From: Halalkaliarchaeum desulfuricum
GTDB lineage: Archaea; Halobacteriota; Halobacteria; Halobacteriales; Haloferacaceae
Assembly (NCBI RefSeq): GCF_002952775.1
Contig: NZ_CP025066.1
Span: 1,240,001 to 1,304,000, forward strand
Direction: 5' to 3'
DNA length: 64,000 nt
The first letter of the stretch is position 1; every line of letters starts with the position of its first letter. The position numbers were made by a program, and so were the translations under genes. The notes beneath the pieces are model-generated. The model did no database searches, had not been told where the DNA came from, and was given only the letters and a program-made list of their open reading frames with translations. Below are positions 4,438 through 9,873 of this stretch, one piece after another.

Positions 4438-4638
4438 TCACCCGCCGTCAGTACCGTTCAGAACGGTCAACATGACCGCGCCGAAGAACGTCCCGCCGGC
4501 GAAGGTGGGTTCGGCGATCATGACGGGCAGGGCGACCAGCAACGCAATGTAGCCGATTAACCCGGCCAGAGACCGCTGATCGTGGTTCGAGAGTCCGGTC
4601 GATGCCTGACTTTGCAGCGAGTGAGACGTGTGTTGCAT
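4438..4638 (-). CDS. Small membrane protein of unknown function
   Basis: A 66-residue protein beginning MQHTSHSLQS. It has a polar N-terminus and two closely spaced hydrophobic stretches (LAGLIGYIALLVALPVMIA and FAGGTFFGAVMLTVL), so probably two membrane segments. The start at 4638 is supported by a strong TATA box 29 bp upstream; a longer reading frame to 4746 would run through that promoter. I do not recognise a family. Confidence 0.7.
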   Translation of the reverse strand: MQHTSHSLQSQASTGLSNHDQRSLAGLIGYIALLVALPVMIAEPTFAGGTFFGAVMLTVLNGTDGG

Positions 4639-4666
4639 CACAGATAGTAGATAGAACGTGACCACC

Positions 4667-4676
4667 ATAAATATAA
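4667..4676 (-). promoter_or_regulatory. TATA box of the small membrane protein gene
   Basis: TTATATTTAT on the minus strand, 29 bp from the ATG at 4638. It is one of the clearest TATA boxes in the window and decides the start codon of this gene. Confidence 0.65.
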
Positions 4677-4836
4677 TCTGAATGATATTTCTGTAAGTGG
4701 CGTTACTGAAATTCCTTTCAGTACGAGCGCACGGGAAGTTCTCCAATTTTCGTGGGGAAACTTAAAAAGGAATACGGGGCAGCGTTCGACCCTGCAGCGG
4801 CTCGGCCTCGAGAACGGTTTCTATAGCGGATCGAAC

Positions 4837-4883: not shown

Positions 4884-4895
4884 AATATTTAAAAC
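4884..4895 (+). promoter_or_regulatory. Possible TATA box directly before the 65-bp array
   Basis: The plus strand reads TGTAAAATATTTAAAACAAG around 4880-4899. A TATA element here would start transcription near 4910-4920, the first base of the array. No coding sequence follows, so a promoter would drive a non-coding RNA. This is inference from spacing only. Confidence 0.35.
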
Positions 4896-4907: not shown

Positions 4908-5324
4908 CCGGCGGCGAGCGGAGCGAGGCGCGAGTGAAACGAGCGCCTCGGAACTGCGAACGGGGAGCGTAGCGACCCGTGAGCGGAGCGAGGCGCGAGT
5001 GAAACGAGCGCCTCGGAACTGCGAACGGGGAGCGTAGCGACCCGTGAGCGGAGCGAGGCGCGAGTGAAACGAGCGCCTCGGAACTGCGAACGGGGAGCGT
5101 AGCGACCCGTGAGCGGAGCGAGGCGCGAGTGAAACGAGCGCCTCGGAACTGCGAACGGGGAGCGTAGCGACCCGTGAGCGGAGCGAGGCGCGAGTGAAAC
5201 GAGCGCCTCGGAACTGCGAACGGGGAGCGTAGCGACCCGTGAGCGGAGCGAGGCGCGAGTGAAACGAGCGCCTCGGAACTGCGAACGGGGAGCGTAGCGA
5301 CCCGTGAGCGGAGCGAGCCGCCGG
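4908..5324. repeat. Tandem array of six perfect 65-bp units with two hairpins each
   Basis: Units begin at 4916, 4981, 5046, 5111, 5176 and 5241, with a partial seventh at 5306, and I see no difference between them. Each unit holds two inverted repeats, CGAGGCGC/GCGCCTCG and ACGGG/CCCGT, both with 11-base loops of consensus GAGYGNARCGA; the same 11-mer begins each unit. The array is flanked by an 8-bp inverted repeat, CCGGCGGC (4908-4915) and GCCGCCGG (5317-5324). On the plus strand two T6 tracts follow (5326-5331 and 5340-5345). The reading frame through the array is an artefact, because 65 is not a multiple of three. It is not CRISPR: there are no spacers. Confidence 0.9.
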
Positions 5325-5325
5325 C

Positions 5326-5345
5326 TTTTTTGGTCGAGCTTTTTT
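5326..5345 (+). terminator. Two T6 tracts after the repeat array
   Basis: CTTTTTTGG occurs twice within 20 bp just after the GC-rich right flank of the array. Oligo-T runs end transcription in archaea, so these could terminate a plus-strand array transcript. Confidence 0.4.
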
Positions 5346-5347
5346 GG

Positions 5348-5395
5348 CGGGGGTCGAGGGCGCTCTTCGAGCGCCCGAGGCCCCCGTTAAAAAAG
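5348..5395 (-). terminator. Terminator region of proS
   Basis: Just after the proS stop the minus strand reads TTTTTT (5389-5395) and then a large GC-rich hairpin: outer GGGGG/CCCCC and inner GGGCGCTC/GAGCGCCC around a 3-base loop. The T-run fits archaeal termination. The hairpin is strong and may protect the 3' end or separate proS from the repeat array. Confidence 0.55.
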
Positions 5396-5403
5396 GTCGG
5401 GGT

Positions 5404-6885
5404 TTAGTAGGACTTCGCGAAGTACGCCGTCCGTTCGGCGTCGTCGTCACAGACCGCACACGTCTCGTCGTGATCGCCGTCGGCGAGGTCGTCCTCCTCT
5501 TCGAAGGGCACCATTACGATCTCGGCGGCGATCTGATCTTTGACCTCGGTTTCACACGCCTCCTCGCCGCACCACGGCGCTTTCACGTACCCGCCGTGCT
5601 GACCGATCGTCCCGAGAATCTCGTCGCGGGTGTCCGCTTCCCGGACACCGTCCTCGAGGATCTCTTCGGCGGTGGCGTACAGCTTCGCGTACACCTCGTC
5701 GAGATGGTCCTGCACCGTCTCGTCTGCGTTCTCGCGATCCTCGACGGTCGACTCGCCGTCGGGGCGGTGAACCAGGGTGAGTTCGTCGTCGTCGACCTCA
5801 TTGGGGCCGATCTCGATCCGGAGCGGGACGCCCTTCAGCTCCCACTCGTTGAACTTGAAACCGGGGTTGCGCCCCTCCCGGTCGTCAAGTTTGACGCGCA
5901 CGCCATCTTCCTCGAGCTCCGCGGTCAGCTCCTCGGCGTACTCGAGTACCTCGTCTTTGGTGTCGGACTGCCAGATCGGGACGACGACGACCTGCTCGGG
6001 CGCCACTGTCGGGGGGAGCACGAGCCCCTGGTCGTCCGAGTGGGTCATGATCAAGGCGCCGATCGCCCGCCAGGAGATCCCCCAGGAGGTGGTGTGTGCG
6101 AGGTTCTGCTCCTCGTCCTCGTCGGCGTAGGTGATGTCGAACGCCTCCGCGAACGATGTCCCGAGGTAGTGGCTCGTCGATCCCTGGACCGACTTGCCGT
6201 CGGGCATGAGCGCCTCGATGGTCGTGGTCGTGTGGGCGCCGGGGAACTTGTCGTGTTCGGGCTTTTCTCCCTTGAGGACGGGCATCGCCAGCAGGTCCTC
6301 GTAGGTCGATTCGTACTGGTCGAGCCGGCGGAACGTCTCCTCGAGAGCGTCCTCGCGGGACCGATGGGCGGTGTGGCCCTCCTGCCAGAGGAACTCCTTG
6401 GTCCGGAAGAACGGCTTCGTCTCGGTTGCCTCCCAGCGGACGACCCCACACCACTGGTTCACGCGAAGCGGGAGGTCGCGGTGGCTGCGGATCCACTGGC
6501 TCATGTACGGCGTGATGATCGACTCGCTGGTGGGCCGGACGGCGAGCCGCTCTTCGAGCTCATCGTGACCGCCGTGGGTGACCCACGCCACCTCGGGGTC
6601 GAACCCCTCGATGATGTCTTTCTCCCGCTGGAGATACGATTCGGGGATGAAAACGGGGAAGTAGGCGTTCCGGACGCCCGTCGACTTGAACTGCTCGTCG
6701 AGGTCGTCCCGGATCGCCTCCCACAGCGCGTAGCCGCGGGGCCGGGTGATGATGAAGCCGCTCATTCCCTCGGGGCCGTAGCTCGCGAGTTTTGCCTTCC
6801 GGACGACCTCGGCGTACCACTCGCCAGTCTCGTGTTCCTTGCTTTTAGTGATGCCGAGTTCCTGCTCGGTTGTCGGTTCGCTCAT
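5404..6885 (-). CDS. proS: Prolyl-tRNA synthetase
   Basis: A 493-residue class-II aminoacyl-tRNA synthetase of the archaeal/eukaryal ProRS type; it charges tRNA-Pro with proline using ATP. It shows VRPTSESIITPYMSQWIRSH and LPLRVNQWCGVVRWE of the active site, TSHYLGTSFAEAF, an anticodon-binding domain, and a C-terminal zinc-binding region with CGEEAC and CAVC. It ends AYFAKSY, the conserved C-terminus with a terminal tyrosine. A GTTTAAG box 26-32 bp before the ATG at 6885 supports the start. The gene is monocistronic. Confidence 0.97.
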   Translation of the reverse strand: MSEPTTEQELGITKSKEHETGEWYAEVVRKAKLASYGPEGMSGFIITRPRGYALWEAIRDDLDEQFKSTGVRNAYFPVFIPESYLQREKDIIEGFDPEVAWVTHGGHDELEERLAVRPTSESIITPYMSQWIRSHRDLPLRVNQWCGVVRWEATETKPFFRTKEFLWQEGHTAHRSREDALEETFRRLDQYESTYEDLLAMPVLKGEKPEHDKFPGAHTTTTIEALMPDGKSVQGSTSHYLGTSFAEAFDITYADEDEEQNLAHTTSWGISWRAIGALIMTHSDDQGLVLPPTVAPEQVVVVPIWQSDTKDEVLEYAEELTAELEEDGVRVKLDDREGRNPGFKFNEWELKGVPLRIEIGPNEVDDDELTLVHRPDGESTVEDRENADETVQDHLDEVYAKLYATAEEILEDGVREADTRDEILGTIGQHGGYVKAPWCGEEACETEVKDQIAAEIVMVPFEEEDDLADGDHDETCAVCDDDAERTAYFAKSY

Positions 6886-7960: not shown

Positions 7961-8557
7961 ATGCCGAACTATCCGACCCACGCACAGTGGGGTCGTCGCG
8001 CGGCGGTCGCGGTCGCTCTGTTGGTGGGGGCTGGAATCTACACAGCGTTCGATCTCCCGATCCTGGCGGTCGTCGCCGCGGTCGGCGCGGGAGCGACGAC
8101 GTTCGTCGGGTCGATCTACCCGGACGTCGATCACCACAACTCCGTCCCTCGCCGGAAGGCGACGCGGATCTTTCGAGGCTTCGCTGTATTCGGCGTTATC
8201 TCCCTGGGCGTATTACACTGGGAACGACTGGTCGAATTCGCCGCGACGATCCCGACCGAGGAACTGCTCTCGGAGGACGTAATCCCCACGGAAATAGTCG
8301 CAAGCGGCGGGATCGCGATGCTCGCGCTGGGGAGTGCGGCGCTCGTGGATCCGCTCATCGGGATAGTGACCCGACAACACCGCGACTGGACACACAGCGT
8401 TCCGATCAACTTCGCTTTGACAGCGCTTTTCGCTGCCGGGGTCTGGCTTCTGGTCCGGGAGTTCGAGCCGGCCTACCAGATCGCGGCTGTCGCCGTCGTC
8501 GGCGCGTTCTTCCTCGGCTGTCTCGTCCATCTGGGACTCGACGGGGAGGTCGGGTGA
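7961..8557 (+). CDS. Membrane-bound metal-dependent hydrolase (YdjM/DUF457 type)
   Basis: A 198-residue protein beginning MPNYPTHAQWGRRAA. Conserved acidic and histidine residues typical of this family are visible: SIYPDVDHHNSVPRRKATR, LVDPLIGIVTRQHRDWTHS and several membrane helices. The family is named for predicted metal-dependent hydrolase activity; the true role in archaea is unknown. I chose ATG 7961 because the family starts near this point; the frame stays open upstream to about 7865. The stop codon lies in the first unit of a 10-bp tandem repeat. Confidence 0.8.
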   Translation: MPNYPTHAQWGRRAAVAVALLVGAGIYTAFDLPILAVVAAVGAGATTFVGSIYPDVDHHNSVPRRKATRIFRGFAVFGVISLGVLHWERLVEFAATIPTEELLSEDVIPTEIVASGGIAMLALGSAALVDPLIGIVTRQHRDWTHSVPINFALTALFAAGVWLLVREFEPAYQIAAVAVVGAFFLGCLVHLGLDGEVG

Positions 8558-8605
8558 CCGTCCACGACCGTCCACGACCGTCCACGACCGTCCACGACCG
8601 TCCAC
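8556..8605. repeat. Five 10-bp tandem repeats overlapping a stop codon
   Basis: GACCGTCCAC is repeated five times without change. The first unit begins inside the TGA of the upstream hydrolase gene (8555-8557). The next base pattern (GATCGG) breaks the repeat. It lies between that gene and the ftsZ1 promoter. Confidence 0.9.
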
Positions 8606-8658
8606 GATCGGCATCGTGCAGAAATGGATCGAATCGGCCGTATTCGGACGACATCCGG

Positions 8659-8724: not shown

Positions 8725-9873
8725 ATGGACTCCATCGTCGAGGACGCGATTGACGAGGCCGAGGAACCGGGGGAGGATCCGCCCGAAGGGGAGTTCGGCG
8801 GCGAGGCGAACCGCGACGCCACGCCGACCGGGACGATGTCCGACGACGAACTCCGCGACGTCTTGCAGGATCTCCAGACGAACATCACCGTCGTGGGCTG
8901 TGGCGGCGCCGGCGGGAACACCGTAAATCGGATGTCCGAAGAGGGGATCCACGGGGCGAAGCTGGTCGCTGCCAACACCGACGTCCAGCACCTGGTGAAC
9001 GTCGAATCCGACACCAAGATCCTGATGGGACAACAGAAGACGCAGGGTCGCGGGGCGGGATCGCTCCCGCAGGTCGGCGAGGAGGCGGCCCTCGAGTCCC
9101 AGGAAGAGATCTACGACGCCATCGAGGGCTCCGATATGGTGTTCGTCACCGCCGGACTGGGTGGCGGCACCGGCACGGGTTCCGCCCCCGTCGTCGCCAA
9201 GGCCGCCCGCGAGACCGGCGCGCTCACCATCTCGATCGTCACCACGCCGTTTACCGCCGAAGGGGAGGTCCGCCGGACGAACGCCGAGGCGGGGCTCGAG
9301 CGGCTCCGTGACGTCTCGGACACGGTGATCGTCGTGCCGAACGACCGCCTGCTCGACGCGGTCGGGAAACTCCCGGTCCGTCAGGCGTTCAAAGTGTCCG
9401 ACGAGGTGTTGATGCGGTCCGTCAAGGGGATCACCGAACTGATCACGATGCCCGGCCTCGTCAACCTCGACTTCGCGGACGTCCGCACGGTGATGGAGAA
9501 GGGCGGCGTGGCGATGATCGGTCTCGGCGAATCCGACTCCGAATCGAAGGCGCAAGACTCGGTGAAGTCCGCGCTTCGCTCGCCGCTTCTGGACGTCGAC
9601 ATCTCCGGGGCGAACTCCGCGCTGGTGAACGTCACCGGCGGCTCCGACATGAGCATCGAGGAGGCCGAGGGCGTCGTCGAGGAGATCTACGACCGGATCG
9701 ATCCGGACGCACGCATCATCTGGGGCACGTCGATCGACGAGGAACTCGACGGACAGATGCGGACGATGATCGTCGTCACCGGCGTCCAGTCGCCACAGAT
9801 CTACGGGGGAACAGATGGCCAGCCCGCCGGCGAATCCATCCAGGGAACCGAAGACATCGACTACGTCGAGTGA
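8725..9873 (+). CDS. ftsZ1: Cell division protein FtsZ1
   Basis: A 382-residue tubulin-superfamily GTPase of the division ring. It begins [13 protein letters not shown] as haloarchaeal FtsZ1 does; an upstream in-frame ATG (8680) would lie across the promoter. GTP-binding features are [15 protein letters not shown] (about residues 54-68), [13 protein letters not shown], and the N-D pair in VVPNDRLL. The T7-loop segment [11 protein letters not shown] is also present. A variable acidic linker precedes the GTPase domain. Its neighbours secE and spt5 identify the locus as FtsZ1 rather than FtsZ2. Confidence 0.95.

Follow-up and report, generated by a model that had tools for sequence, protein, structure and literature searches.

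A tandem array of capped hairpins inside a dispersed gene-end element beside proS of Halalkaliarchaeum desulfuricum

A perfect tandem array in which every unit carries the same hairpins raises the question of whether the array itself has a task, or whether it is a by-product of how the surrounding DNA folds and multiplies. The example studied here lies in a window (the whole stretch of 64,000 nucleotides analysed, positions being counted from its first letter) of the Halalkaliarchaeum desulfuricum genome. An earlier reading of the letters, hereafter the first-pass annotation, had described a perfect array of six 65-bp units, and the units at 4916-5305 are indeed letter-identical (TRF: period 65, 6.2 copies, 99% matches, score 805), followed by a partial seventh that opens with GAGCGGAGCGA. 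The limits it had drawn, 4908-5324, coincide exactly with an 8-bp outer stem, whose arms are adjoined by the first and last motif copies. Each unit comprises a hairpin A (8-bp stem CGAGGCGC/GCGCCTCG, cap GAGTGAAACGA), a hairpin B (cap GAGCGTAGCGA on the stem ACGGG/CCCGT) and, between the two, a third copy of the motif, GAGCGGAGCGA, which is overlapped by the 3' end of hairpin B; the array holds 19 motif copies, not the 18 counted previously. The features of the locus are as follows.

4438-4746, minus strand: small ORF with a hydrophobic stretch, the other neighbour; the region is kept in Halalkaliarchaeum sp. AArc-CO (75% over 435 bp)
4908-5399, plus strand: whole putative 3'-end hairpin element, hairpin 1 (array-expanded) - T6GGTCGAGCT6 - hairpin 2 - A6GGTCG; the layout recurs in the genome and in relatives
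4908-4915, plus strand: left arm of the outer stem of hairpin 1, CCGGCGGC, pairing with 5317-5324
4916-5305, plus strand: array of six identical 65-bp units, from unit identity and TRF
4924-4950, plus strand: unit 1 hairpin A, CGAGGCGC - GA.GT.GAA.AC.GA - GCGCCTCG, recurring every 65 bp
4956-4984, plus strand: unit 1 hairpin B, GC.GA.ACGGG - GA.GC.GTA.GC.GA - CCCGT.GA.GC, recurring every 65 bp
4981-4991, plus strand: third motif GAGCGGAGCGA at the unit boundary, with other starts at 4916, 5046, 5111, 5176, 5241 and 5306
5306-5316, plus strand: partial seventh unit, the closing GAGCGGAGCGA, from a motif match
5317-5324, plus strand: right arm of the outer stem of hairpin 1, GCCGCCGG, pairing with 4908-4915
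5326-5345, plus strand: TTTTTTGGTCGAGCTTTTTT, with the conserved core TTTTTGGTCSAGMTTTTT; 12 copies in the genome, 0 control matches
5335-5399, no strand assigned: hairpin 2, an imperfect 31-nt inverted repeat seen in the sequence, CGAGC-TTTTTT ... AAAAAA-GGTCG
Within 5335-5399: inner arms of hairpin 2, CGGGGGTC.GA.GGGCGCTC / GAGCGCCC.GA.GGCCCCCG
5389-5399, minus strand: right end of the element, AAAAAAGGTCG on the plus strand, 4 nt from the proS stop
5404-6885, minus strand: proS, prolyl-tRNA synthetase, 493 aa, convergent with the G strand of the element

The array is not organised as a CRISPR array, the whole 65-bp unit being identical in all six units, with no variable spacers. Genome-wide, motif pairs 3-33 nt apart number 31, versus 0 for the reversed pattern, and this pairing is not chance. 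A replication-strand polarity of the motif was considered and rejected, a shorter pattern giving 42 forward and 43 reverse copies in the genome. Elsewhere in the window, 8556-8607 holds 5.2 perfect copies of the 10-mer GACCGTCCAC, in the upstream gap of an FtsZ/tubulin-like gene (8725-9873).

The first-pass annotation saw two hairpins per unit with 11-nt loops; the two hairpins stand, but each 'loop' resolves into two further base pairs and a triloop, GA-xx-GNA-x'x'-GA. In the consensus GAGYGNARCGA, pairing is possible between positions 3 and 9 (G-C) and between positions 4 and 8 (C-G or T-A), which closes a GNA triloop; the GA / GA flanks are probable tandem sheared G.A pairs. We scanned for the free pattern GAxxGNAxxGA in 1.46 Mb of haloarchaeal DNA, which had partly been chosen with the motif, a choice that did not select for AC/GT, CC/GG or AT/AT inner pairs. 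Both inner pairs were Watson-Crick in 80 of the 88 capped hairpins with a stem of at least 4 bp; by length of the outer stem, the share was 11% at 0-1 bp, 41/49 at 4-5 bp and 39/39 at 6 bp or more, compared with 4-18% in those control patterns with enough stem-flanked copies to judge (two further controls had one or two such copies only). GC/GC inner pairs predominated (51), followed by AC/GT (15), GT/AC (10), CC/GG (3) and AT/AT (1), and the inner stem was 2 bp long in 64 hairpins, with lengths of 3, 4 and 5 bp in 1, 1 and 8. The 64 copies of GA-2bp-GNA-2bp-GA compare with 0-5 once the fixed bases were changed, and the pair just outside the GA had a 5' pyrimidine and a purine in 54/59. Triloops were GAA (28), GGA (19), GCA (6) and GTA (6), far commoner than GNRA tetraloops, which barely exceeded their control. 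Because the cap varies with its base pairs preserved (e.g. GAGCGNAGCGA, GAGTGAAACGA, GAACGAAGTGA and GACCGGAGGGA), its shape is conserved no less than its sequence. This variation, together with damaged caps that were amplified to seven copies in AArc-CO, speaks against the earlier view of an invariant loop as the recognised feature.

PMC6479982, citing Hirao 1994 and Yoshizawa 1997, describes d(GCGNAGC) as an extraordinarily stable DNA mini-hairpin, in which a GAA triloop adds about 6 degrees of stability over GTA. That very sequence, GCGNAGC, forms the core of the cap; any N occurs, with GAA the commonest here. The mini-hairpins are known in vitro and as aptamer caps, whereas here the sequence stands between probable tandem G.A pairs and is dispersed through archaeal genomes. 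The conserved 'motif' would then be a structural cap, such that the G.A-rich strand could form a very stable mini-hairpin and the opposite strand a weaker one. The preference for GNA triloops alongside barely enriched GNRA tetraloops lends mild support to a structure at the DNA level and is not proof of it. A kink-turn or L7Ae site was considered and set aside, as the cap has no unpaired bulge and U, and a de novo loop census was abandoned as too noisy in coding-rich loci.

Compensatory stem changes under constant loops had been put forward as support for function, and an alignment revealed just such changes. It comprised 11 units of differing sequence, taken from the window, from elsewhere in the genome, from a congener and from two plasmids. 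The two-hairpin structure paired in 98.6% of alignment cells, with 8 of its 19 pairs changed on both sides, compared with 89.5% pairing in shuffled and 27-49% in slid structures, and none of 500 shuffles reached either the 98.6% or the 8 two-sided changes. RNAalifold recovered the same stems from the unit alignment, and hairpin A occurs with the stems GGCGC/GCGCC, GGTTC/GAACC, GGTGC/GCACC and GGCGT/ACGCC. Together with the scan of the caps, this shows that the strand read here folds into capped hairpins and that compensatory change keeps both caps and stems. The motif is conserved in relatives. RNA and DNA models alike favour folding of the G strand, with predicted energies of -34.3 versus -26.1 kcal/mol for the complement as RNA, and -17.8 versus -15.7 kcal/mol as DNA. 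In 27 of 72 capped-hairpin clusters (~38%), the window's included, no gene on the same strand lies upstream of the G strand, which speaks against a purely 3'-UTR RNA role; in the window the G strand is antisense to both neighbours, and a 3'-UTR reading would use the weaker-folding strand.

The array does not stand alone, since it occupies the inside of the first hairpin (H1) of a larger conserved element, H1 - T6GGTCSAGMT6 - H2 - A6GGTSG, which the first-pass annotation did not contain. After the array come TTTTTTGGTCGAGCTTTTTT, hairpin 2 and AAAAAAGGTCG, and then, 4 nt on, the proS stop; read on the minus strand, the right end is CGACCTTTTTT, directly after the proS stop codon. The sequence TTTTTGGTCSAGNTTTTT is present 12 times in this genome and was also found in 23 of 60 relatives, against 0 control matches. 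Many Halobacteriales have the element, with as many as 12 copies in a genome; the exact core was not found in the sampled genomes of the phylum outside Halobacteriales. A right end could be recognised in 107 elements, and in 106 of them the S of GGTCSAG is complementary to that of GGTSG, so that the two ends form the foot of hairpin 2. Several copies of hairpin 2 in this genome have the outer arms CGGGGGTC.GA/GA.GGCCCCCG in common, with the inner hairpin exchanged wholesale. At six loci including this one, Rfam 15 gave no family match above the gathering score bar tRNAs, and searches of the published literature for the motif or core as text returned unrelated subjects only. The element and its cap are apparently undescribed in the literature searched, in agreement with the first-pass remark that no named system of this design is known.

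The position of the elements points to gene ends. Convergent gaps are over-represented (42 of 111 elements, versus 97 of 664 gaps) and divergent gaps under-represented (13 of 111, versus 210 of 664), with genes called by a simple codon-usage caller that missed tRNAs and small genes. Among 64 elements with an opposing gene downstream, 45 have their right end at a distance of 0-7 nt from the stop codon of that gene. At proS the element has the features of a bidirectional terminator, namely a GC hairpin, T6 on the plus strand (5326-5331 and 5340-5345) and T6 on the minus strand opposite A6. We favour, with a probability of about one half, the reading that the array is a recent tandem amplification within a dispersed gene-end element, that the element is a bidirectional 3'-end or terminator hairpin, and that units multiply by slippage, the last suggested by unit identity and variable copy number. 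The element would end transcription on both strands for the genes abutted to it (here proS), with one T-tract per strand, while long fold-back runs would promote replication slippage or template switching, and the extra units would have no separate task. Bidirectional intrinsic terminators likewise lie between convergent genes and consist of GC-rich hairpins with T-tracts on both strands; here, by contrast, the T-tract comes ahead of hairpin 2 and pairs in part with the A-tract, a conserved GGTCSAGM is added, and the terminator role is a predicted one. Three findings count against this explanation: the conservation of GGTCSAGM exceeds the need of a simple T-tract terminator, about 20 of 107 elements have a duplicated gene tail, which a plain terminator does not explain, and the G strand of the window is antisense to both neighbours, as noted above.

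Comparison with a congener separates the history of the element from that of the array. In Halalkaliarchaeum sp. AArc-CO (G001) the proS orthologue is 96% identical and is followed by the same element, in which hairpin 1 is plain and hairpin 2 holds seven identical 69-bp units with damaged caps (GAGCGAAGAGA, GAGCGAAGCCA). The proS element is thus older than the split of the two species, and the arrays are separate, recent and variable. At the 1552.9-kb locus there is one unit in this genome versus 14.7 units of 70 bp in AArc-CO. The element at 201.5 kb is absent from AArc-CO, and that at 2421 kb is represented there by a right-end remnant, CCCGTCAAAAAAGTGG; an insertion reading of the 2421-kb locus was rejected, because a congener that keeps CCCGTCAAAAAAGTGG points to loss and not to an empty site. 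Outside the genus, about 40 named haloarchaea showed no such element downstream of proS. Within it, the two species differ in how many units they have and where these lie (6 in H1 versus 7 in H2), so that the array looks like an amplification specific to its lineage, and nothing points to a role that depends on copy number. Copy number that varies, at proS and at the 1552.9-kb locus alike, speaks against a dedicated array function and had been listed by the first-pass annotation itself as a refuting outcome; what it observed is confirmed, and its interpretation is supported in part. A tandem expansion is an ordinary kind of event, found here in a structural setting that is unusual and apparently undescribed.

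As a lineage-specific repeat expansion the array alone matters less than the wider finding: a strand-specific structural motif, equivalent to a stable in-vitro DNA mini-hairpin, caps intergenic hairpins across Halobacteriales and is tied to a conserved T5GGTCSAGMT5...A5GGTSG element at stop codons that sometimes duplicates gene tails. How haloarchaeal genes end, whether the hairpins form as DNA or RNA, and what multiplies them are questions made testable by it. Separately, the 14.7 units of AArc-CO (L346:1984-3013) are 99% alike, and the orthologous locus of the window species has a single unit. Near 201.6 kb (L143:18550-18660), several tandem copies of the 11-mer ACCCGTGAGCG lie beside two array-type units, a second scale of tandem amplification within the same hairpin.

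Two other readings were weighed. The plus strand could be a small structured RNA running from a TATA-like AATATTTAAAAC (~4885) to GCCGCCGG-CTTTTTT, with capped hairpins as protein-binding or decoy sites. A copy of TATTTAAA about 25-30 nt before the array and another upstream of the AArc-CO element, the strong RNA fold of the array strand (z = -4.5) and the compensatory changes fit such an RNA. We consider it unlikely, as an AT-rich, promoter-like stretch is missing at this spacing from most other copies of the element, the array amplified in AArc-CO has damaged caps, RNA hairpins usually owe a stable tip to GNRA tetraloops, which are so little enriched here beside GNA triloops, and Rfam has no match. 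The other reading, in line with the first-pass annotation, takes the array for a multi-site platform whose 19 motif copies a protein would recognise and whose copy number would have been selected. It draws on the recurrence of one cap, inner stem of 2 bp included, in several hairpin families of the genome that are otherwise unrelated; copy number and location that differ between sister species, and decayed caps that were amplified, make it improbable. The TATA-like AATATTTAAAAC occupies 4885-4895, and the TATTTAAA of AArc-CO sits in a tandem repeat of ~32 bp.

A further reading, tentative yet to be taken seriously, is that elements and units are short non-autonomous mobile elements, moving through a single-stranded, hairpin-marked intermediate, landing at gene 3' ends (proteins, tRNAs) with a duplicated gene tail, and with units entering other hairpins at caps. 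Flanking direct repeats above the 99% null accompany 23 of 107 elements, and most are the last 30-90 nt of a gene, stop codon included, the second copy usually lying 0-10 nt after GGTSG. Such gene-tail duplications at other copies hint at mobility, as do arrays at 120.4 and 341.3 kb that repeat [hairpin + tRNA 3' tail] in tandem and bear the same caps, a unit nested in the hairpin of another at 3263.6 kb, the presence/absence difference between congeners at 201.5 kb, and the case of Haloquadratum, whose SMR-A repeats insert into the palindromes of other elements (PMC3119063). Y1_Tnp (PF01797), however, is absent from the element-rich genomes G059, G034, G007, G008, G039 and G057, caps are absent from 12 Y1_Tnp loci, elements that adjoin an opposing stop have no tail copy, and the 2421-kb remnant indicates loss. 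Mobilisation by IS200/IS605 or RAYT as a requirement was rejected, several element-rich genomes being without Y1_Tnp and Y1_Tnp loci without capped hairpins; the window's own genome has three Y1_Tnp matches. A viral origin was also rejected: the elements are absent from viral contigs apart from chance hits, and of 20 hits there nearly all were AT-rich chance matches that had no right end. More speculatively, the elements may be an undescribed class of haloarchaeal mobile hairpins with G.A/GNA caps, inserting at gene 3' ends with tail duplication, supplying ready-made bidirectional 3' ends and moved by an unknown enzyme that recognises single-stranded DNA in folded form, with the proS array as a by-product.

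The closest described precedent, set beside our elements by description, is those SMR-A repeats. Like the PATEs of Haloquadratum walsbyi they are non-coding, palindromic and dispersed, from ~50-110 bp up; PATEs resemble IS605 ends and make no target duplication, while SMR-A sit inside palindromes of other elements and their mobilisation is called enigmatic (PMC3119063). Our elements are likewise haloarchaeal, non-coding, palindromic and dispersed, and units within hairpins resemble SMR-A within palindromes, being found inside hairpin 1 or 2 and once nested in another, where insertion and local duplication are inseparable. By description they differ in their T5GGTCSAGM/A5GGTSG ends, stop-codon abutment, gene-tail duplications (about 20 of 107 elements) and lack of a Y1_Tnp link: the six element-rich genomes have no Y1 (HUH) TnpA of PF01797, and IS605-like near-terminal palindromes with capped hairpins were not seen at the 12 Y1_Tnp loci. 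A comparison with bacterial palindromes is also apt. REPs have a conserved GTAG foot. As described in PMC2817692 and PMC3116915, REP/BIME/REPIN sequences with RAYT are many, short, intergenic and palindromic, sometimes in tandem clusters, as here; in our elements, by contrast, the tip and not the foot is conserved, no GTAG foot was found in the motif contexts, and neither RAYT nor Y1_Tnp is required.

Several other loci deserve mention in their own right. The genome has two tandem arrays, at 120.3-121.0 kb (L141) and 341.3-341.7 kb (L144), with about four units apiece, 156 and 125 bp long respectively; every unit joins a capped hairpin to a duplicate of the 3' portion of the neighbouring tRNA gene, and a similar two-unit array is found at 843.7 kb. 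Repeated tRNA-His 3' tails with capped hairpins at ~3279.2-3280.9 kb (L169:5740-7400) directly adjoin a TnpA-like (Y1) gene, with a TnpB-like reading frame further on. At ten loci (L186, L190, L192, L201, L238, L239, L245, L262, L264 and L265) the last 30-90 coding nt of a protein gene are duplicated just after the GGTGG end, and the stop codons often differ between the copies.
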